64,000 bases of DNA from Parvibaculum indicum. Its GTDB lineage: Bacteria; Pseudomonadota; Alphaproteobacteria; Parvibaculales; Parvibaculaceae. Below are positions 248-18,066 of this stretch, in pieces. How positions within the stretch are numbered: the first letter of the stretch is position 1; each line of letters opens with the position of its first letter. The stretch lies in contig NZ_JAASQO010000015.1 in NCBI RefSeq assembly GCF_011762095.1, positions 1 to 64,000 on the forward strand, read 5' to 3'. Both the position numbers and the translations under genes were made by a program. The notes below the pieces were generated by a model. The model saw only the letters and a program-made list of their open reading frames with translations. It searched no databases and was not told the DNA's origin.

Positions 248-763
248 TCATGTCGAGACCAGCTCCCGGAACGCGCTTTGAAAATAGAGAAGCGGCTCCG
301 TCTCGCCCGGACAGCCGACGAAAAGCACCCGTCCCACAAGGATTTCGTGATCGCCGCCGTCATGGACGGCTTCCAGCTCGCAATCGATGGTCGAGCTGTT
401 CTCCGCAAAAAGCGGTGCGCCCGTTACCCTGCTTTGCCAGTCCACGCCCTCGAATTTCGGTCCGCCCCTGGAAGAGGCGAATTTTCGGGCAATGGCGGCC
501 TGTTCTGCCGAAAGAATGTTCACACCGAAAAAGCCGGCATCCCGAATGGCGGCCAGCGTGTTGCTGCCGCGATCCATGCTCACCATCACCAGGGGCGGCG
601 CCATGGAGAGCGCGGAGAAGGCGCTGACCGTGGTGCCCGCCGGGGCGTCGTCCTGCAATGTGGTGACGATGGTGACGCCGCTTGCAAAACAGCCCAGCGC
701 CCTGCGAAACAGATTCTCGTCGATTTCAGTCATATCCTGTCCGTCTTTCGTCCGTTCAACCAT
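248..763 (-). CDS. Flavin reductase (RutF/HpaC-like), 171 aa
   Basis: Small flavin reductase domain protein. It begins MVERTKDG, then shows the family core FASGVTIVTT near the N-terminus, SAFSALSMAPPLV and GFFGVNIL. Family members use NAD(P)H to reduce free FMN or FAD and hand it to a monooxygenase. Here the obvious client is the RutA-like monooxygenase two genes upstream. The ATG at 763 has a GAGG 7 nt before it; an alternative ATG at 733 lacks a better site. The start lies 8 bp after the M20 stop codon, which indicates an operon. RutF-like rather than HpaC-like is an inference from the neighbours. Confidence 0.9.
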   Translation of the reverse strand: MVERTKDGQDMTEIDENLFRRALGCFASGVTIVTTLQDDAPAGTTVSAFSALSMAPPLVMVSMDRGSNTLAAIRDAGFFGVNILSAEQAAIARKFASSRGGPKFEGVDWQSRVTGAPLFAENSSTIDCELEAVHDGGDHEILVGRVLFVGCPGETEPLLYFQSAFRELVST

Positions 764-771
764 GGCGCGCC

Positions 772-2142
772 TCAGAACGGCTTGTCTCCATAGACGGGCT
801 TGTAGGTGCCGGCATTGCGGCGTCCCTCCGCCCGGCCGCAGACGGCAAGCGCGGTCAATGCGTAAACGAGCGCACTGTCGGCAAGATCGTCCGGCGAGGG
901 CCGCCAGCGCGGCATGCCCGTGGTGACGGCGGGCACGCGATGCATGTTGAAGACGTTCTGGTCGCGCCACATGCTGGAATAGACGGGATTTGCGCGTTCC
1001 AGCGGCCGCCCGAGAGAGAGGCTCGTCGCGCGGCCCACGGCGGATACGAGCGGGGCGACCTCATCGGCATCCGCCTCGAAGCCGTGACGCACCACCATGG
1101 GCTCAATGTCGAACCCTTCGAGATCGAACTGACGCATGAGCGCCGTCAGCTCATGCTGCACATCGGCGGCCTTCTGCTTCGGCGTCAGGCCCGCTTCGGT
1201 GTAGAGCGAAACGACTTCCGTGCCCGCCCCGAAGGAATGGGGGATGCCGGCGCGGATACTGTCGATCTGCGTCTTGGGAATGGAGATGCCGCCCTCGCTT
1301 TCATAACGATGACGCTCGGGATAGGTGCGTCCCCATTCATGCAGCGCTTCGAGAATGGGCCCCAGCCGGTAGATCGGGTTGGGGTGCTCCAGAATATTTT
1401 CCGGCGTGTCCAGAATGGGCGTGAACATGCCCTGCCCGTAGATCCGGATACGGAACACCACATAGCCGCAGCCCTGCCAGGTGAGCCCGAAATCGGTGCC
1501 TTCCGCCGCGATGGCGAAATCGGGCGAGACGCCGCCATGATGGAAGAGGTAATGCGCGCCGATATCCTTGCCGAGATAGTCGACGCCCCGGCGCTCCTCG
1601 ATGGGCTCCGGGCCGATCTCGCCCGGGCAGGCAGTGAGATAGAGTTTGCCGGAAAGATCGAAGCCGGCCTTTTTCAGCGCCTTGGCCGCGATCATGAAGC
1701 AGCTCATGGGGCCGCGATCATTGGCGATCGGGTAGCCGAAAAGCTTGCCGTCCTCGAGCCAGCATTCCTGCCATTCGCGATTTTCCAGCGTCTCCGGCCG
1801 ATAGCGCGCCACATCGAGATCCGGTTCCCAAGTCGGGCTTTCGGTATCGAGATGCGCGGTAAAGAGCAGGTTCTTGCCTTCGCCATAGCCGCCATATTCG
1901 CCGATGACGTTCTGCCGCTCCGGCGTGGCGCCGACGGCGCGCGGGGCAAAGCCTTCGCGCTCCAGCCATTCGAAGACATAGTTGCTCGCCTCGGCCTCAT
2001 GGCGGGAGGGGCTCGGGATATTGCCGAGCTCCAGTGCGAGTTCCGTCAGCTCGTCCTTGTCGATGGAAGCCGAAAGCGCGGCGCGCTCTTCCTCGCCCAC
2101 CTGATAGGGCGCGGGCATTTTGATATTCAGAAGATCCGTCAT
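772..2142 (-). CDS. M20-family metallo-amidohydrolase, 456 aa
   Basis: M20 (ArgE/DapE/CPG2) zinc hydrolase. The metal-site motifs are visible: AHLDTES (His-x-Asp), the ND of IANDRGP, GEIGPEPIEE (catalytic and metal Glu) and AAEGTDFG. Family members cleave amide bonds of small N-acyl or N-carbamoyl compounds, which suits release of an amine or acid after ring opening by the upstream RutA-like enzyme. The start ATG at 2142 overlaps the stop of the upstream gene in an ATGA, so the two are translationally coupled. The E. coli rut operon has no M20 enzyme, so this is a departure from the classical uracil pathway. The substrate is unknown. Confidence 0.9.
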   Translation of the reverse strand: MTDLLNIKMPAPYQVGEEERAALSASIDKDELTELALELGNIPSPSRHEAEASNYVFEWLEREGFAPRAVGATPERQNVIGEYGGYGEGKNLLFTAHLDTESPTWEPDLDVARYRPETLENREWQECWLEDGKLFGYPIANDRGPMSCFMIAAKALKKAGFDLSGKLYLTACPGEIGPEPIEERRGVDYLGKDIGAHYLFHHGGVSPDFAIAAEGTDFGLTWQGCGYVVFRIRIYGQGMFTPILDTPENILEHPNPIYRLGPILEALHEWGRTYPERHRYESEGGISIPKTQIDSIRAGIPHSFGAGTEVVSLYTEAGLTPKQKAADVQHELTALMRQFDLEGFDIEPMVVRHGFEADADEVAPLVSAVGRATSLSLGRPLERANPVYSSMWRDQNVFNMHRVPAVTTGMPRWRPSPDDLADSALVYALTALAVCGRAEGRRNAGTYKPVYGDKPF

Positions 2143-2807
2143 TTGCAGTTTTCCCACGCGCCTTCGATGTCCGCCGTCTTTGTCAGGATGGCGCAATTGA
2201 GTTCCAGCGAGCGCAGCGCTCCTTCATGCACGTCCGCGCCATAGGCAGCGCAGGCGTCCTCCGCGATGAAGACGTGATAGTCGCGGTGGAAAGCGTCGCG
2301 CACCGTGCAGTCGATGCAACACTCCGTGGTGAGGCCGCAGACGACGAGCGTGTCCGCGCCCGTATCGCACAGCACGTCCGCGAAGTCGGTTTCGTAGAAG
2401 GCGGAGTATTTCGGCTTCATCACCACGGGATCGCCCGGCAGCGGCTGAGGACCGTAGAACGCGGCGCCCGGCGAGCCGGCGCGGCAGACCGCGCTTTCCG
2501 CCTCCGGATCGCCGTGGCGACGGCGCATCCACTCGCCCCATGACGGGCTGTCGGTTTCCGGCGAGGTAGAGAGGCCGATGAAGATCACCGGCACCCCCGC
2601 CTTGCGCGCGGCGGCGATCAGACGCTCCGTCTTTGCGATCGCCGCCGGCACGGCGGACATATCCACCCCGAAGCCCGCCAGCAGCCCGTCCGGCGCGGCG
2701 AAATCGACCTGGATGTCGATGACGCACAGCGCTGTCCGGTTCGGCGCGATCCATGCCTTCAGGTCGCCGACGCCCGCGGGCGCCGCATTTTGCGCAAGCT
2801 CCGTCAT
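2139..2807 (-). CDS. Isochorismatase-like cysteine amidohydrolase (RutB-like), 222 aa
   Basis: Cysteine hydrolase of the isochorismatase/nicotinamidase superfamily. The triad can be placed at Asp31 (VIDIQVDF), Lys131 or Lys133 (MKPKYSAF) and Cys163 (GLTTECCIDC). RutB members hydrolyse the ureidoacrylate formed by RutA to a carbamate and an aminoacrylate; nicotinamidases and carbamoyl sarcosine hydrolases share the fold. RutB-like is preferred because a RutA-like enzyme lies directly upstream. Both ends are coupled by ATGA overlaps, to the monooxygenase (2804-2807) and to the M20 gene (2139-2142). Confidence 0.9.
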   Translation of the reverse strand: MTELAQNAAPAGVGDLKAWIAPNRTALCVIDIQVDFAAPDGLLAGFGVDMSAVPAAIAKTERLIAAARKAGVPVIFIGLSTSPETDSPSWGEWMRRRHGDPEAESAVCRAGSPGAAFYGPQPLPGDPVVMKPKYSAFYETDFADVLCDTGADTLVVCGLTTECCIDCTVRDAFHRDYHVFIAEDACAAYGADVHEGALRSLELNCAILTKTADIEGAWENCK

Positions 2808-3856
2808 GCGAAGTGAGCCCGGAGCTTGGGCAGCACTTCCGCGCCCATGATCTTCAGTCCTTCGACATAGTCGGGGAAGATCAGCATGACGCCATCGAGC
2901 TCGCAGAACTCGACCTGCTCTTTCAGCTTTTCGAGGCAGGTCTCGGGCGTGCCGTGCACGACATGGGTCATGAAGGTTTCCTTCGCCTTCTCGCCCATGA
3001 CGCTGGAGCTGCCGTCGGCTTCCATGCCGTAGGAGCGCATCATGCCCTGCACCGCGCCCCAATCGAGACCTTCCTTGTAGTAGGCGACCTTTTCGGCGGC
3101 CTCCTCGTCGGTCTCGCCGAACACGACCGTGCTCATGGCGAAGGCCTTGATCGTCTCGTTGTATTCATCCGCGACGCGGCGGGCCATGCGGGAAATGCGC
3201 TGCGTGTCTTCCGCCGTCTTGCCGCCGATGAAGCAGGCATCCGTGTTCTGCACGGTAAAGCGCAGGCCCCGCTCCGACTGCCCGGCGCAGATCATGTAGG
3301 GGCGCGGGCTCGACATCGGCTTGGGCTCGGAGACGCAATCCTTGAAGGTGAAGAACTCGCCTTCATAGTCCACATGGTCCTTCTCCCACATGGTCCGGAC
3401 GAGCTTGGCCCATTCTTCCGCATAGCGGTAGCGGCCGTCATGGTCGAGATTTTCCGGCCAGGCGCCCATCTGGTCGAACTCATCCTTGTAGGCGCCGGAG
3501 ACGATGTTGAGCCCTGCGCGGCCGCCCGAGATGTGGTCGAGCGTCGTAATCATCTTGGCGACGACGGCGGGGTTCTGCAGCAGGGTATGAACCGTGGCGA
3601 TGATCTTGGCGTTCTTCGTCGCCTCGGCGATACCGGCCATCATGGTGACGGATTCGAGCGAGGTGCCCCAATGCTCCGTCTCGCCGCCGAAGCCGCGCCA
3701 CTTCATCATCGACATGATGAAATCCAGCCCGATCTCGTCGGCAAGCACCGCCGCGTCGCGGTTCTGCTTGTAGGACGCGTCCAGCTTGGGCGTGTTCTTG
3801 GAAATGATCCATCCGCCATTCGCGATGGGAAGGAAAACGCCGAATTGCTTCGTCAT
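2804..3856 (-). CDS. RutA-like FMNH2-dependent luciferase-family monooxygenase, 351 aa
   Basis: Bacterial luciferase-like (TIM-barrel) flavin monooxygenase. The N-terminus FGVFLPIANGGWIIS and internal blocks WRGFGGETEHWGTSLES, DHISGGRAGLNIVSG, YKDEFDQMG and MICAGQSERG resemble pyrimidine monooxygenase RutA as I recall it. RutA opens the uracil ring with reduced FMN supplied by a RutF reductase. Here the reductase, a RutB-like hydrolase and an M20 hydrolase follow in one operon, but RutC, RutD, RutE and RutG are absent, so the substrate may be another cyclic amide or N-heterocycle. ATG 3856 (GAGAG upstream) is chosen over an in-frame GTG at 3910 because it matches the family N-terminus. Confidence 0.88.
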   Translation of the reverse strand: MTKQFGVFLPIANGGWIISKNTPKLDASYKQNRDAAVLADEIGLDFIMSMMKWRGFGGETEHWGTSLESVTMMAGIAEATKNAKIIATVHTLLQNPAVVAKMITTLDHISGGRAGLNIVSGAYKDEFDQMGAWPENLDHDGRYRYAEEWAKLVRTMWEKDHVDYEGEFFTFKDCVSEPKPMSSPRPYMICAGQSERGLRFTVQNTDACFIGGKTAEDTQRISRMARRVADEYNETIKAFAMSTVVFGETDEEAAEKVAYYKEGLDWGAVQGMMRSYGMEADGSSSVMGEKAKETFMTHVVHGTPETCLEKLKEQVEFCELDGVMLIFPDYVEGLKIMGAEVLPKLRAHFA

Positions 3857-3924
3857 CTTGGTACTCTCGTTTCTGGTTTCGCGGGACAACACCGTCCCAT
3901 CCTTACTCACGCCTTTCGGGGACC

Positions 3925-5238
3925 TCAGCTCGAAGAGCCGACGGCCTCCATTCGCAGTTCCTCTTCTCCCCTTTCTTCAACCTGGCCTTCGGCCGCCGCC
4001 TCGCCTTCGTCGCTTCGCACCGGCGGGCGCATCAGCAGCACCGCGCCGCCCACCACCGCGGGTACGATCGCAAAGAGCAGAAAGGCCGAGACGAAAGAGC
4101 CCGTCGTGTCGCGTACATAGCCGCCGAAGAACGGGCCGAACGAGGCGAGCGTCGCGGCCACGTTCACCATGGAGAAAAGCTCCAGATAGGGGCCGCGGCC
4201 GAAATAGTTCATCAGCAGCACGCTGGTCGCGAGGAAGGTGGCGCCATAGCCAATGCCGATCCCGGCCGCATAGACCATCAGGATGGGAAAGCTCGTGCCG
4301 AGCGTCAGGGCCACCATGCCCACGACGAGGCACATCAGCGACATGAAGAGAAGTTTTTTCGGCTCGAAGAATTCGCCGAGGAAACCGCTTCCCGCGCGCG
4401 CCACGGAATTGAGAAACGCCTCGACGCTGAGCAGGCTGCCGGCGAGCGCCATGGCGACGCCATGCTCCGTCAGATGCGCCACGGAGAGGCTGTTCACCGT
4501 GATGCCGCAGAGCAGGAAGGAAACATAGGCCGCTGCGATGATATAGAATTGCGGCGTGCGAAGCGCCTGCATGACGGTCCAGGTTTCTTTCGTCATGTGG
4601 ACGCCGGGCGCCGCATCGACGACGGCGTCGTTGGCGATTTCCTCAGCCTTCTTGTCCTGCTCTTCGCCCTCGCGGAGGAAGATCGCAATGATGAGCGCGG
4701 CGATGCCGGTCAGGACGGCGGCGATCATCCAGTGCATGCGCCAGTTGTCCCAGACGCCGACCGCGGTGAAATAGATCAGCGGGCCGACAATGCCGCCGAG
4801 ACCGCCCAATGTGTAGTAAATGCCGAATGCCATGGACTGCTTCTTGAAGCAGCGCGCGATGACATAGGTGCCGGGCACCGTCGCCACGAAGGAAAAGCCC
4901 GTGCCCGCGAGCACCGTTCCCAGGAAATAGGCCCAGATGGTCTGCACCTCGTAGAGGCAGAGAAAGCCCGCCACCATCATGGCGCCGCCGAAAAGCACGG
5001 TGAGGCGGACATTGGTATGGCGGATCATCAGGGCCGGCGGATAGCTGGACAGGCCGCAGGAGATGCCGAGCAGGGTGAAGCCGAGCCCGGCCGAGGTCCA
5101 GTCCCAGCCGAGGTCCCGCACCATGTCGGGCAGGACCACGCCGAGAGAGGTGAAAGTGGTTGCGGTGACGAGAAAGAACATCAGGCTGAAAGACAGCAGG
5201 ACGAACCACGCATAGAGGTTGTCACGAAGTTCACTCAT
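3925..5238 (-). CDS. MFS transporter, 437 aa
   Basis: Inner-membrane major facilitator with about twelve hydrophobic segments in two halves, split by a charged central loop (EGEEQDKKAEEIANDA). The C-terminal tail is acidic and cytoplasmic. It resembles the MFS group of monocarboxylate or oxalate/formate-type anion carriers, though I cannot fix the subfamily. It sits between a TonB-dependent receptor (start 7806) and the RutA-like gene, with gaps of 51 and 68 bp, so the likely role is carrying the operon's substrate across the inner membrane after outer-membrane uptake. Confidence 0.9.
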   Translation of the reverse strand: MSELRDNLYAWFVLLSFSLMFFLVTATTFTSLGVVLPDMVRDLGWDWTSAGLGFTLLGISCGLSSYPPALMIRHTNVRLTVLFGGAMMVAGFLCLYEVQTIWAYFLGTVLAGTGFSFVATVPGTYVIARCFKKQSMAFGIYYTLGGLGGIVGPLIYFTAVGVWDNWRMHWMIAAVLTGIAALIIAIFLREGEEQDKKAEEIANDAVVDAAPGVHMTKETWTVMQALRTPQFYIIAAAYVSFLLCGITVNSLSVAHLTEHGVAMALAGSLLSVEAFLNSVARAGSGFLGEFFEPKKLLFMSLMCLVVGMVALTLGTSFPILMVYAAGIGIGYGATFLATSVLLMNYFGRGPYLELFSMVNVAATLASFGPFFGGYVRDTTGSFVSAFLLFAIVPAVVGGAVLLMRPPVRSDEGEAAAEGQVEERGEEELRMEAVGSSS

Positions 5239-5289: not shown

Positions 5290-7806
5290 TCAGAACCGGT
5301 ATGTCGCGGTGACACGCCATTCGCGGCCCTTGCCGGGCAGCGCGGCGATGTCGCCATAGAGGTCCTGAAGCGGGGTGAAATATTCTTCGTCGAACAGGTT
5401 GTTCACGTTGAGCTGGACTTTCCAGTCGTAGAAGTCCGCAAAAGCCGAGGCCTGTACGAGGTAGTAGTCCGGGTAGTGGACGGGATTGGCCGAGAGACCG
5501 GCGGTCTCCGACACATATTTCACGCCCGCCGTCGCCCCGAGCTGACCCCAGGAATACTGGTCCGTGGTGTAGGTCGCGAACAGACTTGCCACGATTTCCG
5601 GAATACGGCGGTCCTCGATTTCACCGGCGTAGTAGGAGTTGCCGGTAAAGCCCGCCATGTCGCTGAAGTCGTACACGGCCAGCGCACCGCCATAATAGTC
5701 GATGGGGTCGAGGCCGAAGTCTTCCGGACGGAAGTAGTAGAAGGCGTTGTAGCTGCCGAGGATCTTGGTCTGCTGAGCGTTACCCGCGAAGGTGAAGCTC
5801 AGATTGTCCGTCGCCAGATAACGCATTTCCAGCTCGACACCCTTGCCTTCCGTCTTGTCGACGCTACCGCTGACCGTGTCGAAGATGGTCCTGTGCTGGC
5901 GATAGGCCGCGACGGAGCCGGTCAGGATGCCGTCGAAGGCTTCCAGCTTGATGCCCACTTCGGTCAGGTCACCGTCGGAAAGCCAACTGCCATTGGCCAG
6001 ATTGCTCGGGGCCACGTCGCCGACCTGGCCGAACTCGATGGCCGAGGTCTTGGCATAGGTCACGTAAGGACGGAACCCATAGGGCAGCGGCACCATGGCC
6101 ATCGCCGAATAGGTGAATTTTCCATCGTCATTATACTGATGACCGGGCGTGCAGTAGCAGAGCGTACCGCGATCGACGGACTCCGCCGCATACCAGTCGT
6201 AGCGACCGGTCAGGGTGATGTCGATGGCGTTGCCCAGGTTGGAATCGAGCATGGCGTAGATGCCTGCGTCGTTCCAGGTGGACTCGACATTGTTGTCCCA
6301 ACCGTAGCCGGAACCCGCATCGAAGGGAGAGCCGAGCGTATCGGTCGGCGTGGCGCCTACCGAGAGGTCGCGACGATCGAGCGCGATACCGCCGTAATTG
6401 TAGGACTCTTTCTTGATCGCCGAGTAGTAGCGGTTGGACACACCGACATTGTAGTCGAGGGTGAACGGCACGAAAGCGAGATCCGGGGCGAAGCTGCCGC
6501 TGTAGCTCACGCGCGCCTCACCCGTATAGGCTTCGTAGTCGGCCGGGAAGCCGTAGCTCACGAAACGCTCATTGCCCAGCGAGTCGAAGAAGAGCTGGAA
6601 CTTGAGCTGCGACCCGTCGTCATATTTGTGCACAAGATCGCCGAACAGGGTGACGGTGTAGGTCTCGGAGAAGTCCCTGTCGCTGATATAGACGTCATGC
6701 GGGCTCAGATGCGTGGTTCCGACACCCGTATCCAACTGACGATAGACCTGTGCAACACCGAAATAGTAAGGCGGATAGTAGCCGAGACCGCCGGCCGGAA
6801 GTTCGCCAGCATCGAGATAGCCGTTGCCGTTGGAATCCGTCAGGCCCGTATTCTGACCCGTGGTGTAAGTGCCGTTGTCGATCAGATCCTGGGTCAGGCG
6901 GTTCCAGCCCGGCGTCTGCACATAGCCGTCGGAGTGATAGAACATGCCGCCCATCTTGAACGACCAGCCATTGTTCATATCGAAATCGCCGGTCAGCTGC
7001 AGGAGCTGATGCTCCGGGTCGATGCCATTGTAGAAGCTGCCGGAATCCTCGATCTCGCCATAAACATAGATGCCGCCGTCGGTATTGCCGAAGCTCATCG
7101 GGATACCGGCCTGGAAGCTGCCGTTCTTCTTGTCATAGGAGCCGAAGGTGCCAGAGACCTCGCCCGTCAGTTCGGTGAGGTAGCCGGCTTCTTCCGAGAT
7201 CTTCGCGGTCTTGGGCTCGAGGTTCATCGAGCCGCCGACCTTGCCCGGCCCGAAATTCGCCGTGGGCGGACCGCGCAGAATGTCCACGCGCGAGGTGGAA
7301 CCGAGCGGCGTCTGATAGGTGCCGCGGTTTTCGATGCGCTTGAAGCCGTGGAAATAGGTTTCCGCCAGAAGACCGCGCACATTGACCGCGCCTTCCACGC
7401 CATAGAAAGACGCAGTGAACGTGCCCGGCGACACGGAGGCCAGATCGTTGACCGTCGTCACGCCATAGGCATCGAGCGTGTCGTCGCTGACAAAGGTCGC
7501 GGAGCGCGCCGTCTCGAGCAGCGGCTTGTCGATACCGAACAGCAGGTCGCTCGGCTGCTGCTCCAGCAGGCCCGCCTTGTCGCGTTCTGAAATCACGACC
7601 ATCTCGGCCGTCTTCTTCTTGCCGTCGGCCGTTTCGCCATCCGTCTCGCCGGACGGCGTCGTCGATAGCGTCATGACAGGCGTGTCGTCACCCGTCGCGG
7701 CAGTTTCCCCACTTGCTTCCTGGGCGTGGACAACACGCGGCAAGGCCGTCGCGCCGACCATCAGCACCATCATGGAAACAGAGGAGAGAAGTAGTTTTCT
7801 TCGCAT
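5290..7806 (-). CDS. TonB-dependent receptor with an EF-hand-like loop, 838 aa
   Basis: Outer-membrane active transporter. It has a Sec signal peptide (MRRKLLLSS to VVHAQ), a plug domain with NVRG and RVDILRGPPTANFGPG, then a long beta-barrel ending in VTATYRF with a terminal Phe as usual. Residues about 324-335 read DSNGNGYLDAGE, a full 12-residue EF-hand calcium-loop pattern inside a predicted surface loop. It heads the operon that continues with an MFS carrier and RutA-like, RutB-like, M20 and RutF-like enzymes, so its ligand is probably the catabolic substrate rather than iron. ATG 7806 follows AAGGGGG; a GTG at 7824 is the alternative. Confidence 0.93.
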   Translation of the reverse strand: MRRKLLLSSVSMMVLMVGATALPRVVHAQEASGETAATGDDTPVMTLSTTPSGETDGETADGKKKTAEMVVISERDKAGLLEQQPSDLLFGIDKPLLETARSATFVSDDTLDAYGVTTVNDLASVSPGTFTASFYGVEGAVNVRGLLAETYFHGFKRIENRGTYQTPLGSTSRVDILRGPPTANFGPGKVGGSMNLEPKTAKISEEAGYLTELTGEVSGTFGSYDKKNGSFQAGIPMSFGNTDGGIYVYGEIEDSGSFYNGIDPEHQLLQLTGDFDMNNGWSFKMGGMFYHSDGYVQTPGWNRLTQDLIDNGTYTTGQNTGLTDSNGNGYLDAGELPAGGLGYYPPYYFGVAQVYRQLDTGVGTTHLSPHDVYISDRDFSETYTVTLFGDLVHKYDDGSQLKFQLFFDSLGNERFVSYGFPADYEAYTGEARVSYSGSFAPDLAFVPFTLDYNVGVSNRYYSAIKKESYNYGGIALDRRDLSVGATPTDTLGSPFDAGSGYGWDNNVESTWNDAGIYAMLDSNLGNAIDITLTGRYDWYAAESVDRGTLCYCTPGHQYNDDGKFTYSAMAMVPLPYGFRPYVTYAKTSAIEFGQVGDVAPSNLANGSWLSDGDLTEVGIKLEAFDGILTGSVAAYRQHRTIFDTVSGSVDKTEGKGVELEMRYLATDNLSFTFAGNAQQTKILGSYNAFYYFRPEDFGLDPIDYYGGALAVYDFSDMAGFTGNSYYAGEIEDRRIPEIVASLFATYTTDQYSWGQLGATAGVKYVSETAGLSANPVHYPDYYLVQASAFADFYDWKVQLNVNNLFDEEYFTPLQDLYGDIAALPGKGREWRVTATYRF

Positions 7807-8379
7807 GCCAGAAGCCCCCTTCACACAAACAAGGCCGCGCTGCGAACAAGTTGCATGAGCGGCAGGGATGAGAAGAGCAATAGGCGTGCCAGAGAACGAA
7901 GCTATTGAATTCGTTCGGCTTTCCGTTTTTCAGCGCGCCAGAACTGACTTCTTGTCAGCCTCTATTCCCGGGGCTGTGGCATGACTTGCCACCGATTTCG
8001 GCATCGCCCCGCTGCCGGGCGTATTCAGACAAGTATGCGTTCGCCTTCCCTCGTTCAGGGGACAGATTGATTGCCGCGAACCGCCGCGCCCAGCCGCTTT
8101 CGCTGCAAACAGGCTTGCGGAAAACACCGTCATGCGCCGGGCCGCGAGGTGGCCAATGCCGCATGAAACGGAGCTATTCCGCAGCTTCCGCAACGCCATC
8201 GCCGGTTTATGGAAGGTTTTGCCCCCGCCTCCGTCTCTGCCGCATTGTTCGGCATTCGCGACACCGGGGCCGTTTGCGCGTTTTACGGGCGGCAAAGGAT
8301 TGGGCGCATCGAAACAAGATCGCCCCATAGAAGATGAATAGCCTTCGTCATCCAAGTGACAGCGATTGACGAAGTGACC
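7807..8379. other. 573-bp divergent intergenic region
   Basis: No convincing gene on either strand. It must hold the promoter of the receptor operon (leftward) and that of the dioxygenase at 8380 (rightward). A perfect 7-bp inverted repeat, GAACGAA / TTCGTTC, lies at 7894-7900 and 7910-7916, about 90 bp upstream of the receptor start, and is an operator candidate. Open frames across the region have no recognisable content. Confidence 0.6.
7894..7916. promoter_or_regulatory. Inverted repeat, possible operator
   Basis: GAACGAA and TTCGTTC are perfect complements separated by 9 nt. The site lies between the divergent receptor operon and dioxygenase gene. No gene ends here, so a terminator role is unlikely even though T-rich sequence follows on the plus strand. 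Binding by a regulator is an inference. Confidence 0.35.
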
Positions 8380-9228
8380 ATGGCGCCTCAACTGAAACTG
8401 CGCGAGCTGAAACCCGGCTTCGGCGCGGAAATACTGGATGTCGACCTGAAGACGGCGGATGACGAAACGCTGGATGCGGTCGTGGATACTTTCAACAAGC
8501 GCGGCGCCATCCTGTTGCGCGGCCAGGAGATGGAACCGGACGACCTGATGGCGTTCATCTCGCGTTTCGGCGAGCCTGAAGGCCATACCCAGACGCAGTT
8601 CACGCTGCCCGGCTATCCGGAAATCTTCATCCTCTCCAATCGCGAAGTCGACGGGAAACCGATCGGCGCCCATAATGACGGCGTCGGCTGGCATACGGAT
8701 TATTCCTACAAGGAAGAACCCGTGAAATGCACCATGCTCTATGCCAAGGAAGTGCCGCCGGAAGGCAGCGACACGCTGCTGGCCGACCAGTGCGCCGCCT
8801 ACAACGCATTGAGCGAGGACCGCAAGGCGGAGCTCGACAAGCTCAAGCTGCATCACAGCTATCAACATCTGATGTCCACGCGCGAGTTCGGCCGGATGGA
8901 GCTTTCCGAGGAAATGAAAGCGGCCAATCCGGACGTTATCCATCCGCTCATCCGGACGCATCCGGCCAATGGACGCAAGGCGCTCTGGGTCAGCACCGGG
9001 ACCGTGAAGGAGATCGTCGGCATGCCCAACCCGGACGGGCTGGAGCTGGTGGACGAACTCGTGGACTTCGTGACGCGGGATGAATTCGTGCATCGGCACA
9101 AATGGCAGGTCGGCGACATTCTCATGTGGGACAATCGCTGCACGCTGCATACCGGCACGGTCTATGACGACACCAAATATTACCGGCTGATGCATCGCCT
9201 CTGGGTGAAGGGCGACAAACCCTACTGA
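8380..9228 (+). CDS. TauD/TfdA-family Fe(II)/2-oxoglutarate dioxygenase, 282 aa
   Basis: Non-haem iron dioxygenase of the TauD/TfdA family. The facial triad shows as His105-x-Asp107 (GWHTDYS) and the distal His in MWDNRCTLHTG, followed by the 2-oxoglutarate-binding Arg in YYRLMHRLWV. Such enzymes hydroxylate a C-H bond next to a heteroatom, often splitting off sulphite, an amine or an aldehyde, while decarboxylating 2-oxoglutarate. An SDR gene starts 41 bp after its stop. The ATG at 8380 is preferred to a GTG at 8356 because the family fold starts at LKLRELKPGFGAEI; no strong ribosome site precedes either. Substrate unknown. Confidence 0.9.
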   Translation: MAPQLKLRELKPGFGAEILDVDLKTADDETLDAVVDTFNKRGAILLRGQEMEPDDLMAFISRFGEPEGHTQTQFTLPGYPEIFILSNREVDGKPIGAHNDGVGWHTDYSYKEEPVKCTMLYAKEVPPEGSDTLLADQCAAYNALSEDRKAELDKLKLHHSYQHLMSTREFGRMELSEEMKAANPDVIHPLIRTHPANGRKALWVSTGTVKEIVGMPNPDGLELVDELVDFVTRDEFVHRHKWQVGDILMWDNRCTLHTGTVYDDTKYYRLMHRLWVKGDKPY

Positions 9229-10192: not shown

Positions 10193-11008
10193 TTACGCGG
10201 GCCGCTTGTCTTCGGCGACGGTAACGCGGAAGCCGGAGCGGGTCTGCGGGAAATAGTCCCAGACGGCCAGATGCCAGGTGCAGCGATTGTCCCAGAAGGC
10301 AATGGAGTTGGGCTGCCAGCGGAAGCGCACCTGGAAGTTCGGGTTGGCGCAATGCTTGTAGAGCATCTGCAGGATGCCGTCGCTTTCGTCTTTCCTCATG
10401 CCCACGATCTTGGTGGTGTAGGAGGGATTGACGAAAATGCCCTTCTTGCCCGAGACCGGATGCGTGCGCACGACGGGATGCTCGTTGCAGGGGAACTTCT
10501 TGTCCGGATCGTTCGTGATCGGACGATAGACATGCTCGCCGTCATGCACCGCGTAGAGCCCTTCGAGATAGGCTTTCATGCGATCCGACAGCGCATCATA
10601 GGCGGCATACATGCTGGCGAAAAGCGTATCGCCGCCGACCTCCGGCACGGTGTGCAGATAGAGAATGCTGCCCATGGGCGGAATGTCGTTGCAGGTGAGA
10701 TCCGAGTGCCAGTTGTCGCCCGCGATGAATTTGGAATTCGCATCCGCGTGGATCGCCACGATTTCCGGGTGCTCGGCGAGACCGGCCACACCGCTATGGA
10801 TCGCCAGTTCGCCGAAGGCCTTGCCCAGCGCCTTGTGCTGGTCGTGGTCGATATGCTGATCGCGGAAGAAGATTACCTGATAGTCGGTAATGGCCTGCCG
10901 CAGCTCGGCCGTGAGCGCGTCGGTGAGCGGCTCCGAAAGATCGACACCAAAAACCTCGGCGCCGATATTCGCCGTCATCGGTTTGATCTCAAGGATTTCG
11001 TAGTCCAT
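10193..11008 (-). CDS. TauD/TfdA-family Fe(II)/2-oxoglutarate dioxygenase, 271 aa
   Basis: Second alpha-ketoglutarate dioxygenase of the window and closer to true TauD than the one at 8380. His101-x-Asp103 (WHSDL), the distal His of WDNRCTWHLAV and the Arg of RSGFRVTV form the iron and co-substrate site. The N-terminus (IKPMTANIGAEVFGVDLSEPL) is typical of the family. ATG 11008 has AAGGA 9 nt upstream and is preferred to the GTG at 11014. An NADPH-FMN reductase gene lies upstream on the same strand (143-bp gap), so the two may be co-transcribed. Substrate unknown; taurine is not implied. Confidence 0.9.
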   Translation of the reverse strand: MDYEILEIKPMTANIGAEVFGVDLSEPLTDALTAELRQAITDYQVIFFRDQHIDHDQHKALGKAFGELAIHSGVAGLAEHPEIVAIHADANSKFIAGDNWHSDLTCNDIPPMGSILYLHTVPEVGGDTLFASMYAAYDALSDRMKAYLEGLYAVHDGEHVYRPITNDPDKKFPCNEHPVVRTHPVSGKKGIFVNPSYTTKIVGMRKDESDGILQMLYKHCANPNFQVRFRWQPNSIAFWDNRCTWHLAVWDYFPQTRSGFRVTVAEDKRPA

Positions 11009-11151
11009 CTGCACTCATCCTTACAGAAAGTCCGGTTATTGGGCCGGCGAGCCGGACCGCCGGAAATATGTCGCTGACAAAACCCTATCCAAAAGCCGTG
11101 CCAGATACTTGTCCCGAGGCGCCCTACGCTTTGACCGGCGGGCGCGGCCCC

Positions 11152-11757: not shown

Positions 11758-12216
11758 GGGCTGCACCCTTTCGGCTCTTCTTCGTTCCAAGTTCCGATAA
11801 AGCCTAGAAGAGAGCCGGTCCGGGCGTCTTGTGCCTTCACGCTCGATTGCTTGCACAAAACAACGCGGCCCCGGAGCAGACGGCCGCGATGCTGAAAATC
11901 CGGGCAGCGATGCGCCAAAGCTGTGCAGATCGTGCGCTTCTTTCCGTCCGGGAACAAAGTTTTTGGGCGGCATATCGCAAGAGTGCACGAGAGGGAGCCG
12001 GTAGTCTTTTCGATGTGAAGGGCTCTCTTCCGCCGCCTTCGGCGCCCATGCGCCGCGGGCGCGGACCGTTCCTCGGACGAGCCCCGGCACGGCAACCCTC
12101 CATCGGCCTGATTGTTGCGTAGGAGGCCGTATGGAGGGCCCGTGCCATTCGCAAGGGACCGCCGCGCATCCCGCCGGCGGCGAGCAAATGTCACAACCGG
12201 CAAGAGGCAAACGCAT
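11758..12216. other. 459-bp divergent intergenic region
   Basis: No supported gene. It separates the leftward FMN reductase from the rightward Rieske oxygenase and should hold both promoters. A TAGTCTTTTCG segment near 12002-12012 resembles TAGTCTTTCCG near 14363, just upstream of the formamidase gene; the match is short and may be chance. Confidence 0.5.
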
Positions 12217-13401
12217 ATGACCGACAATCCGCTGAACGAGGCATTTTTCCAGAGTATGGAAAGTTCCATTGTCGACGTGCTGGGTGCCGAGACGCTGCCG
12301 CCGGCCTGCTACACCAGCGAGGCGTTTTTCGAATTCGAGAAGGAAGCGCTCTTCAACCATGAATGGCTCTGCGTCGGCCGTGTGGAACAGGTGAAGAATC
12401 CCGGCGACTATTTCACCGTGACGCATATCAACGAGCCGCTCATCATTTGCCGCACACGGGACAACGAGCTGAAGGCGCTGTCGGCGGTGTGCCAGCACCG
12501 CGCCATGCTGGTGGCGGAAGGCCGGGGCAATACGCGCGGTTTCGTCTGCCCCTATCACCACTGGACCTATGCGCTGGACGGGCGGCTGTCCGGTGCGCCG
12601 GCCATGAACAAGACCTGCAATTTCCACCGCGACGACATTCGCCTGCCGGAAATCAAGACCGAGGTGTGGGAAGGCTTCATCTTCGTCAATTTCGACGAGA
12701 ACGCCGCCCCGCTCTCCCCCCGCCTGACGACGGTGCAGGAGGCGTTCAAGAACTACGACCTTGCCCATGCCGAAGGACCGGCACCGGACGAGCCCTTGAA
12801 GTTCGAGTGGAACTGGAAGGTGCAGATGGAAAACAACAATGACGGCTACCACGCCAGCCGCCTGCACCAGGGCCCGCTGCACGAGTTCATTCCGAGCGAG
12901 CTGTGCAGCTTTCCGCCGGTGCCGGAAGGCGCGGCCGGCTATCTGCGCTTCAACGGCGCGCTCCATATGGACCCGGCCTTCAATCCGACGCAAAAGGCGG
13001 TGCTGCCGGTGTTCCCCAACCTCACGGATGAAGAACGCCACCGCGTGATGTTCGCCAATGTGCCGCCGACGCTGTCGCTGGTGATGACGTCGAGCATGGT
13101 GATCTATCTCATCCTGCATGCGGAATCGGCGAAGGAGCATTCCATGACCATCGGCCTGCTGATGGCGCCGGGCGCCATGGAGCATCCGATGTATGAGGAA
13201 CTCATGGACTTCACCATGAAACACACGATCGAGATTACGAGCCAGGACCAGCATGTGGACGAACTGGTGCAGGTGGGCCTTAATTCCCGCTTCGCGCCGC
13301 GCGGCCGCTATTCATGGCAGGAACAGGCGCAAAGCGATCTCAATGTCTGGCTGGTCGAGCGCTACCAGCAGGCATGGGAACGCATGAAGGTCAGCGCCTG
13401 A
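12217..13401 (+). CDS. Rieske non-haem iron oxygenase, large subunit, 394 aa
   Basis: Ring-hydroxylating or demethylating oxygenase alpha subunit. The N-terminal Rieske [2Fe-2S] site is Cys92-x-His94 and Cys111-x2-His114 (CQHR, CPYHHW). The catalytic domain has the bridging Asp209 and iron ligands His212 and His217 (NNNDGYHASRLH), with a later Asp in QDQHVDEL as third ligand. Length fits the family. Neither a beta subunit nor a dedicated ferredoxin or reductase gene is adjacent, so partners must come from elsewhere or from the nearby flavin reductases. The start has AGAGG about 10 nt upstream. The LigB-type gene follows after 39 bp. Confidence 0.92.
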   Translation: MTDNPLNEAFFQSMESSIVDVLGAETLPPACYTSEAFFEFEKEALFNHEWLCVGRVEQVKNPGDYFTVTHINEPLIICRTRDNELKALSAVCQHRAMLVAEGRGNTRGFVCPYHHWTYALDGRLSGAPAMNKTCNFHRDDIRLPEIKTEVWEGFIFVNFDENAAPLSPRLTTVQEAFKNYDLAHAEGPAPDEPLKFEWNWKVQMENNNDGYHASRLHQGPLHEFIPSELCSFPPVPEGAAGYLRFNGALHMDPAFNPTQKAVLPVFPNLTDEERHRVMFANVPPTLSLVMTSSMVIYLILHAESAKEHSMTIGLLMAPGAMEHPMYEELMDFTMKHTIEITSQDQHVDELVQVGLNSRFAPRGRYSWQEQAQSDLNVWLVERYQQAWERMKVSA

Positions 13402-13440: not shown

Positions 13441-14235
13441 ATGACGCCCCCCGCCCCGAGCAAGCGCATGCCCGCCATCTTCATCGGACATGGAAGTCCG
13501 GGCAATGTGATGGAAGACAATTTCTTCACGCGCATGTGGGAAAGGCTCGGGCAGGAGATCGGCAAGCCGCGCGCCATCATCTGCGTTTCCGCCCATTGGT
13601 GCACGAGGGGCGTGCGCGTAACGGGGCAGATCCATCCCCGCACCATCCATGATTTCGGCGGCTTTCCGCAGGAAATGTATGAGATGCAGTATCCCGCGCC
13701 GGGCGACCCGGCGCTGGCGGCCGAACTCGTCCGGCGCCTGGCACCGCTCGAGGCCGAGATCGACCATGAATGGGGATACGACCATGGAAGCTGGGCGGTG
13801 CTGAAGAAGATTTATCCGGATGCGGACGTTCCGCTCATCCAGCTCAGCATGGATATTCGCCAGCCCTCATCGTGGCATTACGAGGCGGGAAAGAAGCTCG
13901 CCGCGTTCCGCGACGACGGCGTTCTCGTCATGGGCAGCGGCAATATCGTGCACAACCTGCCGGAAATGAACTGGCGCATGCGCGACGGCAGCTATGACTG
14001 GGCGGCCCGGTTCGGCGACTATATCCGCGAAAGCATCGCCTCGGACGAACCGGAAAAGCTCGTCGATTACGAGAGTTTCGGGCGGGATGCCCGGCTTTCC
14101 GTTCCTTCGCCCGACCATTACTGGCCGCTTCTCTACGTCATGGGCGCGCGGGCGAAAGGCGAGCCGGCCCATTTCGAAACGCCGGTCGTCGAATACGGAT
14201 CGCTCGACATGACCACCGTCGTCTTCGGCGCCTGA
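13441..14235 (+). CDS. LigB/4,5-DOPA-type extradiol dioxygenase, 264 aa
   Basis: Class III (LigB-fold) dioxygenase of the DODA/YgiD group. Metal-site histidines appear as His17 (FIGHGSP), His52 (SAHW), His115 (DHGSW) and the His of SPDHYWPL. Family members open catechol-type rings between or beside hydroxyls; the E. coli homologue YgiD acts on DOPA. Following a Rieske oxygenase, ring cleavage of a hydroxylated product is the natural reading. A hairpin followed by TTTT lies 36 bp after the stop. Confidence 0.9.
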   Translation: MTPPAPSKRMPAIFIGHGSPGNVMEDNFFTRMWERLGQEIGKPRAIICVSAHWCTRGVRVTGQIHPRTIHDFGGFPQEMYEMQYPAPGDPALAAELVRRLAPLEAEIDHEWGYDHGSWAVLKKIYPDADVPLIQLSMDIRQPSSWHYEAGKKLAAFRDDGVLVMGSGNIVHNLPEMNWRMRDGSYDWAARFGDYIRESIASDEPEKLVDYESFGRDARLSVPSPDHYWPLLYVMGARAKGEPAHFETPVVEYGSLDMTTVVFGA

Positions 14236-14295: not shown

Positions 14296-14420
14296 GTCTG
14301 CCGGGCCAAATCATCAATTTCCGCTGCGCGGGCATGCAAGACGTATTGCCCTTGCCGCTTCTAGTCTTTCCGTCAGGGTCGGGATCATGTCCGGCCTCCC
14401 GCGTTGAAGAGGAGTGGACG

Positions 14421-15503
14421 ATGGATCAGATGTTGGCCAGCAAGGGCTCTACCGGAACCGACCGCAGCGAGCCGACAGGGCTCCATATGCTGCGGGCGAC
14501 CCCCGAAACGGTGCATTGGGGCTATTTCGACGCTTCGCTCGCCCCGGCACTGACCGTCAAGAGCGGCGCCCTCATCCAGGCCGAGGCGCTGACGCATCAC
14601 GCGGGCGATGCGCCGGATCTGATGATGGATGCTTCCGTGCGCCACATCTACGACACCGTGCCGGAAGCCGACCGCAATCCCGGCGTGCATCTGATGACCG
14701 GGCCGATCTATGTCGAAGACGCCAAGCCCGGCGACATGCTGGAAGTGCGCTATCTGCGCATGGTGCCGCGCTTCGACTATGGCTCGAACCTCGCGGCGAA
14801 CTGGGGCCATCTCTACAAGGAATTCGGCGAGAAGGAACGCGTGACGATCTACAAGATCGACCGCTCCACCAATCTCGCCGAGGCGCATTACGCCTATGAC
14901 TATCCGGGCCTTTACGAGACGCCGGGCAAGATCACCAATTGTCCGGAATGCGACCGGCAGCGGGCGCTGAACGGCGTGCGGGTGCCCATCCGGCCGCATC
15001 TGGGCACGGCGGGCGTCGCACCCGACGCGCCCGGCCGGGTCAGCACCATTCCGCCGGGCGCGCATGGCGGCAATATCGACAATTGGCGCATCGGCGCGGG
15101 CGCGACGATGTTCTATCCGGTGCAGGTGGATGGCGGGCTCTTTTCCATCGGCGATCCGCATGTCTCGCAGGGCGACGGCGAAATCAGCGGCACGGCCATC
15201 GAGGCCTCGCTCGACGTGCTCTTCCAGATCGTGCTGCGCAAGGATTTCGAGTTTCCCTCGCCGCTGCTCGAAACGCCGAGCTACTGGATCGTGCACGGCT
15301 TCGACGAAGATCTCGACAATGCGATGCGCAATGCCTCGCTCGACATGCTCAAATTCCTCAATGACAAGCAGGACCTCAGCAAGGACGACGCCTATTCGCT
15401 GATGAGCATTACGGCGGATTTCACCGTAACGCAGGTGGTGGACGGCAAGCAGGGCGTGCATGTGAAGGTGCCGCGCAGCATCTTCCCCACCGGCGGAAAA
15501 TGA
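14421..15503 (+). CDS. Acetamidase/formamidase family amidase, 360 aa
   Basis: FmdA/AmdA-family amidase, which hydrolyses formamide or short-chain amides to ammonia and the acid in the cytoplasm. Family blocks are ETVHWGYFD, TGPIYVEDAKPGD, HGGNIDNWRIGAG, GGLFSIGDPHVSQGDGE followed by GTAIE (the active-site region with its Glu), and TQVVDGKQGVH near the end. ATG 14421 has AGAGGAG 6 nt before it, so an upstream in-frame ATG at 14262 is rejected. Placed after ring-cleaving oxygenases, it could process an amide released from an N-containing ring. It is paralogous to the C-terminal half of the next gene. Confidence 0.93.
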   Translation: MDQMLASKGSTGTDRSEPTGLHMLRATPETVHWGYFDASLAPALTVKSGALIQAEALTHHAGDAPDLMMDASVRHIYDTVPEADRNPGVHLMTGPIYVEDAKPGDMLEVRYLRMVPRFDYGSNLAANWGHLYKEFGEKERVTIYKIDRSTNLAEAHYAYDYPGLYETPGKITNCPECDRQRALNGVRVPIRPHLGTAGVAPDAPGRVSTIPPGAHGGNIDNWRIGAGATMFYPVQVDGGLFSIGDPHVSQGDGEISGTAIEASLDVLFQIVLRKDFEFPSPLLETPSYWIVHGFDEDLDNAMRNASLDMLKFLNDKQDLSKDDAYSLMSITADFTVTQVVDGKQGVHVKVPRSIFPTGGK

Positions 15504-15620: not shown

Positions 15621-15680
15621 TTGTCAGCATGTGGCATCCCGAACAGGCAATGTTCGGGATGCACGCTTGTAACATGAGTG
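15621..15680. promoter_or_regulatory. 12-bp perfect inverted repeat flanked by a direct repeat; operator candidate
   Basis: GCATCCCGAACA (15634-15645) and TGTTCGGGATGC (15651-15662) are perfect complements with a 5-nt spacer. On either side lie related direct repeats, TTGTCAGCATGTG (15621-15633) and TTGTAACATGAGTG (15667-15680). No T run follows, so it is not a simple terminator. The cluster ends within 2 bp of the start of the AraC-amidase fusion gene and would suit autoregulation. Binding is an inference. Confidence 0.5.
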
Positions 15681-15681
15681 C

Positions 15682-18066
15682 GTGACCCCAATGGAAGCCT
15701 GGCGCTTTTCCACAGAAGCCTATCCGAAACCCGACCGCTATGAGGCATGGCAGGATGCCATGCGCCGTCTGGCGCTGAAGCCGACCGGCCATGAAACGGA
15801 AGAAGGAGCCTATGGCCTTCTCTCCGTCGTGACCTCGCATTCCGGCATCAATTTCACGCGCCTCATCTCCACGCCGCAGGAAATCAGCGCGATCCAGGAG
15901 ATCAATCGCGAGATCGGCAAGGACGGCGTCTGGGTCGTCTCGGTGCTCGAAGGCCGCATGACGTTTCACGATGGCGGCAACGACCTGAAGGCCATGTCGG
16001 GCGACATCGTTTACGCGGCCGTCGGCTCTCACACCACGCTGACGCTCGACACGAATTGCCGCCTCATCATGATCCATATTCCAAGCTCGGCCTTCCGGCC
16101 GAAGCTGATGGCGCCCTTGCCGACCAAGGTCATCCATATGTCGGGCCGGGCGGGCGTGGGTCATGTGCTGGCGGGCTTCCTCGCCTCGGTGGGCGAGGCG
16201 CTGGAAGACCTCAGCGTCGACCAGCTCCGCCCCATCGAGATGGCGCTGCCGGAATTCCTGATGGCGGGAATTTTCCGCCAGGCGGATACACGCGCGCTTG
16301 GCGGCGCGGCGGGCGTGCGCGCGGCGCTCTTGCATCGCATCTGCCAGACCATCGAATCCCATCTCAGCGATCCCGACCTCTCGCTCACGCGGATCGCGGA
16401 GGAACACGGCATTTCGCCGCGCTATGTGCAGAAGCTCTTCGAATCCGTCGGGCAGAGCTTCGGGCGCTATGTGCGCTTCCGCCGGCTGGAGCGCTGCCGC
16501 TACGACCTCGAAAGCCCGGTTCATGCGCAGCTTTCGATCTCGGATATCTGCTTCCGCTGGGGCTTCAACGACGCGGCGCATTTCAGCCGCGCCTTTCGCG
16601 ACCACTACAAGGTGTCGCCGCGCGAGTTTCGCCGGTCGGGCCTTGCCGCCGTGCCGGATGAGGGGCCCTGGACGATCAATCGCGGACGGCCCGACGACAA
16701 GGAGAGCGGCTGGTCCGACCTGCAGGAGACAGCGGACGCCCCCTCCCCCGCCCCGGCGGAGGAGGATGGCGAGTTGCAGGTGCTCTCGCCGCCGGAGGCG
16801 ACGACCACCGAGCCCAGGGGCGGCGGACCTGCCCATCACTATCTGCCCGTGACGCGCAAGACCGTGCATTGGGGCTATTTCAGCCGCTTCCTGCCGCCGG
16901 TGGTGGAAATGAAATCGGGCGATTTCATCACCATCGAAACGCTGACGCATCACGCCAATGACGATCATGAGCGCATGGTCGAAGGCGATCCGGGTGCGGA
17001 GGATGTGTTCCACTGGACGAAGGACGGCAAGAATGTGGACCGGCGCGGCGCAGGCCCGCTCGACGCCTCCACCTATGGGCGCGGCGCAGGCGAAGGCTTC
17101 GGCGTTCACATCATGACCGGCCCCGTCGCCGTGGAAGACTCCAAACCCGGCGACATTATCGAACTCCGGATTCTCGACATCGCGCTGCGGCCCAGCGCGA
17201 GCCAGCGTTTTGCGGGACGCAGCTTCGGCAGCAACGCGGCGGCCTGGTGGGGCTTCCATTACAGCGACCTCATCACGCCGCCCGCGCCGCGCGAAGTGGT
17301 GACGATCTACGAAATCGACAAACGCCATGGCAAGGAATGCGCCCGCGCCGTCTATAATTATCGCTGGACGCCGCAGACCGACCCGTTTGGCGTGACGCAT
17401 GAGAAAATCGACTATCCCGGCGTGCAGGTGGACCCGACCACGGTGGAAAAGAATTTCGACGTGCTGAAGGATGTCGAAATTCCGCTGCGCCCGCATTTCG
17501 GCGTCATCGCACTGGCGCCGGACCATCGCGGGATCGTGGACAGTGTGCCGCCCGCGCATTTCGGCGGCAATCTCGACAATTGGCGGCTGGGGCCGGGCTC
17601 GCGCATCTTCCTGCCCGTCGCCGTGGCGGGCGGGCTTTTGTCCATCGGCGATCCGCATGCCTCGCAAGGCGATTCCGAACTTTGCGGTACCGCCATCGAA
17701 TGTTCGCTGACCGGCGTCTTCCAGGTCGTGCTGCACCGGAAGAGCGATCTGACCGGCAAGCTTTTCGATCTCGACTATCCGCTGATCGAAACGGAAGACG
17801 AATGGGTGATCCTCGGTTTCAGCCATCCGAACTATCTGAAGGAACTGGGCAAGAACGCGCAGGCGGAAGTCTATAAGCAGTCTTCCATCGACATGGCGAT
17901 GCGGGACGCCTTCCGGAAGACGCGACGCTTCCTCATGACCTCGAAGGGATTGAGCGAAGACGAAGCGATTTCGCTTATCTCGGTCGCAGTCGACTTCAGC
18001 GTGACGCAGGTGGTGGACGGCAATTGGGGCGTCCATGCCTGTATCCGGAAGAAGCTCTTCACCTGA
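15682..18066 (+). CDS. AraC-family regulator fused to an acetamidase/formamidase domain, 794 aa
   Basis: A single open frame joins two proteins. Residues about 1-210 are an AraC_binding-type sensor (MTFHDGGNDLKAMSGDIVY). Residues about 215-325 are a full AraC DNA-binding domain with both helix-turn-helix units (LTRIAEEHGISPRYVQKLF, ISDICFRWGFNDAAHFSRAF). A Pro/Ala/Glu-rich linker of about 55 residues follows. From about 384 to the end is a complete FmdA/AmdA domain paralogous to the upstream gene: KTVHWGYF, TGPVAVEDSKPGD, FGGNLDNWRLGPG, IGDPHASQGDSELCGTAIE, TQVVDGNWGVH. Its active-site block differs from the stand-alone enzyme (DSE for DGE). There is no stop or frameshift at the junction. Start is GTG 15682 or ATG 15691. 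It may act as an amide-sensing activator, a self-regulating enzyme, or both. Confidence 0.93.
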   Translation: MTPMEAWRFSTEAYPKPDRYEAWQDAMRRLALKPTGHETEEGAYGLLSVVTSHSGINFTRLISTPQEISAIQEINREIGKDGVWVVSVLEGRMTFHDGGNDLKAMSGDIVYAAVGSHTTLTLDTNCRLIMIHIPSSAFRPKLMAPLPTKVIHMSGRAGVGHVLAGFLASVGEALEDLSVDQLRPIEMALPEFLMAGIFRQADTRALGGAAGVRAALLHRICQTIESHLSDPDLSLTRIAEEHGISPRYVQKLFESVGQSFGRYVRFRRLERCRYDLESPVHAQLSISDICFRWGFNDAAHFSRAFRDHYKVSPREFRRSGLAAVPDEGPWTINRGRPDDKESGWSDLQETADAPSPAPAEEDGELQVLSPPEATTTEPRGGGPAHHYLPVTRKTVHWGYFSRFLPPVVEMKSGDFITIETLTHHANDDHERMVEGDPGAEDVFHWTKDGKNVDRRGAGPLDASTYGRGAGEGFGVHIMTGPVAVEDSKPGDIIELRILDIALRPSASQRFAGRSFGSNAAAWWGFHYSDLITPPAPREVVTIYEIDKRHGKECARAVYNYRWTPQTDPFGVTHEKIDYPGVQVDPTTVEKNFDVLKDVEIPLRPHFGVIALAPDHRGIVDSVPPAHFGGNLDNWRLGPGSRIFLPVAVAGGLLSIGDPHASQGDSELCGTAIECSLTGVFQVVLHRKSDLTGKLFDLDYPLIETEDEWVILGFSHPNYLKELGKNAQAEVYKQSSIDMAMRDAFRKTRRFLMTSKGLSEDEAISLISVAVDFSVTQVVDGNWGVHACIRKKLFT

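Follow-up and report, generated by a model that had tools for sequence, protein, structure and literature searches.

An AraC-type regulator fused to a formamidase/acetamidase domain in Parvibaculum indicum: a candidate amide sensor captured from an enzyme

What does a complete amidase domain do at the end of a transcription factor? The question is raised by a stop-free frame of 794 codons at positions 15682-18066 (+) of a 64,000-nucleotide stretch of Parvibaculum indicum DNA (the window). The first-pass annotation had read this frame as an AraC sensor, a double helix-turn-helix (HTH), a linker and a full FmdA/AmdA domain, and had proposed that the amidase was either recruited to sense amides or lets the regulator break down its own inducer. 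The architecture was confirmed from the open frame, Pfam and AlphaFold/Foldseek. The two functional proposals remain the best pair of hypotheses, and a regulatory role is supported; however, the argument drawn from the active-site loop fails, as described below. Transcription factors that reuse enzyme folds as sensors are few and instructive, as with the aminotransferase fold in MocR/GabR, and the amidase fusion is a widely spread further type of enzyme-fold regulator.

Homologues of the protein align from residue 4, and conservation of the DNA also starts at ATG 15691; the true start of the fusion gene is therefore probably this ATG, giving 791 aa. A probable FeaR-like N-terminal sensor/dimerisation domain of the AraC type (15691-16296, +, residues 4-205), which evolves fast between genera, is followed on the same strand by the AraC double HTH (16321-16638, residues 214-319), a disordered linker (16639-16830, residues 320-383) and an FmdA/AmdA domain of the long subfamily (16831-18063, residues 384-794). 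Pfam places HTH_18 and HTH_AraC at residues 238-318 with 74.5 and 54.5 bits (cut-offs 33.6 and 26.6), and finds FmdA_AmdA, split into two matches, in the C-terminal half with 93.8 bits (cut-off 27); AraC_binding_2 at residues 87-178 scores 21.8 bits, under its cut-off of 27. The protein resembles FeaR-like AraC/XylS regulators in its N-terminal sensor-like domain, its double HTH and a putative promoter-proximal element, and the FeaR model (NF007243) aligns to residues 18-319; however, with 115.4 bits against a curated cut-off of 199 it is not a FeaR member, and unlike those regulators it has an additional enzyme domain after the HTH. Against the formamidase FmdA equivalog (NF045496), it reaches 59.7 bits, below the curated cut-off of 500. 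In the AlphaFold model, built from 30 sequences (mean pLDDT 77), two ordered parts are joined by a disordered linker (residues 322-380). By Foldseek, the N-terminal part resembles AraC proteins, CuxR and Rns among them, and the C-terminal domain covers the whole of PDB 3b9t with a TM-score of 0.92 by target length.

The linker evolves fast except at one site. An R-G-x-P motif, here RGRP (16681-16692, +), is invariant between the HTH and the amidase in 74 of 74 aligned fused proteins, taken from the best 80 of 149 stretches, and is absent from the unfused AraC relatives compared. An AT-hook was set aside as an explanation of RGRP, since relatives read RGLP, RGWP, RGKP, RGVP or RGQP at the same site. 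Directly upstream of the gene lies a perfect 12-bp inverted repeat, GCATCCCGAACA-GGCAA-TGTTCGGGATGC (15633-15661), which is not conserved at other Parvibaculum loci.

A homologue scan with one genome per species gave 79 related loci (within the best 80 of 149 confirmed stretches), and the proposed survey of other genomes found the same fusion, in a single frame, at 73 of them, in alpha-, beta- and gammaproteobacteria. The genera include Parvibaculum, Aliiglaciecola, Novosphingobium, Hyphomonas, Paraburkholderia, Caballeronia, Variovorax, Pseudacidovorax, Halopseudomonas and Bradyrhizobium. In an even phylum sample, 8 of 399 genomes carry the full fusion, the window's own included, while 76 of 399 have any FmdA/AmdA match. 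The concern that the architecture might already be described as common proved half right: it is common in genomes, with at least 73 loci, but no description of an AraC-FmdA fusion was found in the open literature, subscription journals lying outside the search. The fusion is thus real and widespread, and apparently new among transcription factors with an enzyme-fold sensor, being undescribed in the open literature searched. Its usual annotation, 'acetamidase/formamidase family protein' (once 'AraC family transcriptional regulator'), conceals a probable regulator in many genomes. On pRlX5 of Rhizobium johnstonii (L125, 5277-7686), the fusion gene is broken in the AraC sensor region, so that one annotated frame holds HTH and amidase and a second, short frame the sensor. 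Long frames in the phylum sample that were considered as other HTH-FmdA fusions (G193, G414, G235:C15, G071 and G190) were rejected, having no HTH evidence by eye and looking like over-extended frames or signal-peptide forms.

Comparison with six other Parvibaculum loci and one related Hyphomicrobiales locus gave dN/dS values of 0.01-0.12 for the fused FmdA half, about equal to those of the neighbouring stand-alone amidase, and up to 0.2-0.8 for the linker; dS was mostly high, and the ratios are rough. Between genera, the FmdA half is approximately 67-73% identical, much like the stand-alone enzyme, and the AraC sensor 25-37%. Judged by these substitution patterns, constraint on the fused amidase domain equals that on the stand-alone enzyme.

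Two known groups of regulators invite comparison. In AraC regulators of the GlxA/FtrA/GbdR type, an N-terminal DJ-1/PfpI (glutamine-amidotransferase-like) domain is the sensor. These proteins likewise combine an AraC HTH with an enzyme-like fold; however, that fold is N-terminal in them and serves as the sensor, whereas the fusion retains the AraC sensor and has gained the enzyme at its C-terminus. In MocR/GabR regulators such as EnuR, a winged helix is fused to an aminotransferase fold (PMC8739950), and here too a DNA-binding domain and an enzyme fold are joined beside catabolic genes of the same pathway; the DNA-binding and enzyme families are different, and the likeness is one of principle only. 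Pfam found neither a winged-helix N-terminus nor a fold-type-I aminotransferase domain in the fusion protein, which is not a MocR/GabR member.

The fused domain shares with 3b9t, a long-subfamily PF03069 protein, the whole fold, 62% identity over 413 columns, the DSE motif and the conserved polar residues. However, 3b9t is a stand-alone Tat-signal protein, whereas the fused domain makes up the C-terminal half of a regulator, and comparison with long stand-alone amidases shows 18 fixed residues specific to the fusions, S463 and D620 among them. The paralogy to the neighbouring amidase noted earlier holds, but it is distant: the identity is about 37% to the neighbour type and approximately 60-63% to long stand-alone amidases elsewhere, and by this measure the neighbour type is the more distant paralogue. 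The active-site loop had been noted as differing between the two (DSE against DGE); in fact members of the long subfamily, 3b9t included, usually read DSE, and those of the short subfamily, the neighbour's group, DGE. This also rules out DSE as a sign of a dead active site. The fused domains form one clade beside the long stand-alone amidases (SH-aLRT 97-98), so that by the tree their origin is single.

In the window, the fusion gene belongs to a cluster that includes TauD-family genes (8356-9228, +, and 10193-11014, -), a gene for a Rieske ring-hydroxylating oxygenase alpha subunit (12112-13401, +; the listed start is likely too far upstream), one for a LigB/4,5-DOPA extradiol dioxygenase family protein (13441-14235, +) and the stand-alone short FmdA/AmdA amidase (14421-15503, +; the frame listed from 14262 is over-extended, and GAGGAG precedes ATG 14421). 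This operon type (TauD, Rieske oxygenase, LigB dioxygenase, short amidase, fusion) is found in the window, other Parvibaculum, Aliiglaciecola, Hyphomonas and, in part, Beijerinckiaceae. In Burkholderiales and Rhizobiales, a second type consists of an amino-acid-type binding protein, an ABC permease/ATPase, a long amidase and the fusion, often with RidA. One type of fusion is thus paired with two amidase subfamilies and two operon types. A separate short or long amidase is present in all eight fusion genomes that were searched whole; in five of them no stand-alone amidase lies close to the fusion, yet one is present elsewhere in the genome.

The promoters of the short amidases, when aligned, share one conserved island, TGCGC-N7-CAAGA, from which the 17-bp pattern KGCGY-N7-CAAGW was derived. 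The pattern also occurs upstream of transporter/long-amidase operons that were not used in its derivation. It lies near an amidase or transporter gene start at 38 of the 79 loci (best 80 of 149 stretches, closely related loci included), nearly always in the orientation of the downstream gene; it is short and degenerate, and a strict match is missing at many loci. The 7.9-kb cluster of the window holds four such elements against 0.13 expected (P 1.2e-5), although the first of the following helped to define the pattern: TGCGCGGGCATGCAAGA (14325-14341, +) lies 80 bp upstream of the stand-alone amidase start, GGCGCATCGAAACAAGA (8303-8319, +) just upstream of the TauD-family gene at 8356, GGCGTATTCAGACAAGT (8018-8034, +) between that gene and a TonB receptor gene (5290-7824, -), and GGCGCCTCGGGACAAGT (11107-11123, -) 92 bp upstream of the TauD-family gene at 10193-11014. 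Directly before the fusion gene, there is no strict or one-mismatch site. The 4.02-Mb genome has 68 matches; two more in the window lie outside the cluster, at 56559-56575 and 59701-59717. The spacing of its two half-sites, approximately one helical turn, suits contact by an AraC double HTH, and the element is the putative binding site of the fusion's AraC half.

Unfused relatives of the AraC half provide a natural control. In genome G390, TauD-like, Rieske, LigB and short amidase genes are followed by a 324-aa AraC protein without an amidase domain, 45% identical to the AraC half of the window fusion, and two element copies precede the Rieske operon. Unfused AraC relatives are carried by Thalassolituus (L076) and Hyphomonas (L075) too; that of Hyphomonas atlantica (L075, 12901-13938) is a second, unfused relative, which shares its cluster with the fusion and adjoins a gene for a Rieske oxygenase. 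In the AraC tree, every bootstrap replicate nests the proteins of G390, L075 and L076 within the fused clade, which suggests secondary loss of the amidase domain; the loss is not statistically established, as one fused clade is not rejected by the AU test (p 0.24). L079 was withdrawn from the unfused relatives, its contig ending inside the gene. Comparison of the window with G390/L154 is near ideal, the same cluster and operator-like element being available with and without the fused domain. The contribution of a captured enzyme domain to a regulator thereby becomes directly testable, with a predicted element and regulon supplied.

Based on these results, it is somewhat probable that the fusion is an AraC activator of a catabolic operon for amides or N-heterocycles, in which the enzyme copy is an extra sensor of a pathway amide. 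The operator-like element, the pairing with a separate amidase and the unfused natural control support a regulatory role. The AraC DNA-binding half would act on KGCGY-N7-CAAGW elements before a catabolic operon that contains the separate amidase. The C-terminal half would be an FmdA amidase of the long subfamily that was captured as a copy and is still well formed, and whose kept active site may bind the pathway amide or a lactam- or ureide-derived amide. The ligand signal would then pass through the flexible RGxP linker and alter how active the AraC half is or how it oligomerises, turning the operon on in the presence of substrate; residual hydrolysis, if kept, would stop the signal once the substrate is consumed. 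Several observations weigh against this reading. The AraC half retains its own N-terminal sensor and unfused relatives occupy the same cluster, and the amidase domain is therefore not needed for regulation as such; the retained AraC sensor leaves room for two signals. The element is degenerate, lacks a strict match at many loci and is missing directly before the fusion gene, and other AraC genes of the window could own it. Finally, the domain retains the polar residues conserved in the family, for which a pure sensor would have no use.

These residues bear on the closest alternative, in which the AraC sensor itself detects the amide and a fully active fused amidase consumes it as a built-in shut-off; we give it an appreciable but minor chance. 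The GGNxD and GDxHxxQGDxExxGTAxE motifs are retained; of the 52 positions that are fixed in each of the two stand-alone groups, 42 are just as fixed in the fusions and the remaining ten vary, mostly conservatively; and at least 95% of fusions retain each of H605, N630, D632, D657, H659, Q662, D664, E666, E673 and E703. Together with the enzyme-like constraint, and with an AraC sensor domain in fused members and unfused relatives alike, this speaks for destruction of the inducer. However, H423, part of an HH pair in all long and in HH-type short stand-alone amidases, has given way to Q in 64 of the 74 fused domains, through at least five changes that all fall inside the fused clade, and the fusion-specific residues, S463 and D620 included, also suggest an altered site. 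Moreover, with a separate amidase in eight of eight genomes, an extra enzyme at the abundance of a regulator would clear the inducer poorly. In the P. indicum fusion protein, H423 is retained. The sequence points both ways on hydrolysis by the fused domain, the conserved residues arguing for it and the recurrent H423Q and fusion-specific residues for an altered site; no paper naming the catalytic residues of the FmdA/AmdA family was found in the open literature. A more speculative extension of the sensor reading, of rather low probability, is a so far undescribed class of one-component regulator, in which a catalytically competent amidase behind the AraC HTH would be sensor and timer at once, the bound amide holding the activator on and hydrolysis resetting it.

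It is unlikely that the fusion is a bifunctional protein without sensing, in which a second catabolic amidase was joined to its regulator through the chance arrangement of the genes. In the unfused loci L076 and G390, the amidase gene indeed lies next to the regulator gene, and a fusion could easily arise; however, the order in these loci is amidase then AraC, whereas the fusion runs AraC then amidase, so it is no read-through of that order. Read-through of the neighbouring amidase is ruled out, as both gene order and subfamily differ. In addition, regulators are usually present at low levels and would be a poor source of enzyme, the fusion is never the sole amidase in the eight genomes searched whole, and its fixed residues are its own. 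Less likely still is subunit exchange, in which mixed oligomers with the stand-alone amidase would let the abundance or occupancy of the enzyme control the AraC half, as in trigger enzymes: fusion and stand-alone paralogue constantly co-occur, but the partner may be a short amidase with 37% identity or a long one with 60%, and a conserved mixed assembly is less likely for that reason. A sequencing or assembly artefact, such as the frameshift that had been named as a danger near the junction, is practically negligible, as the junction is identical in at least 73 other loci and nothing was found in its favour.

The cluster of the window continues with Rut relatives. At 248-5238 (-), a Rut-like N-heterocycle pathway is encoded by genes for a RutF-like flavin reductase, an M20 deacylase, a RutB/biuret-hydrolase-like cysteine hydrolase, a RutA-like luciferase-type monooxygenase and an MFS carrier, the RutA, RutB/biuret hydrolase and RutF relatives all scoring well under the curated cut-offs. 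Other loci contain a dihydropyrimidinase, an allantoinase-like protein, RidA and nitrile hydratase. Taken together, the Rut-like relatives and these proteins point to catabolism of N-heterocycles, ureides or amides as the probable pathway linked to the fusion.
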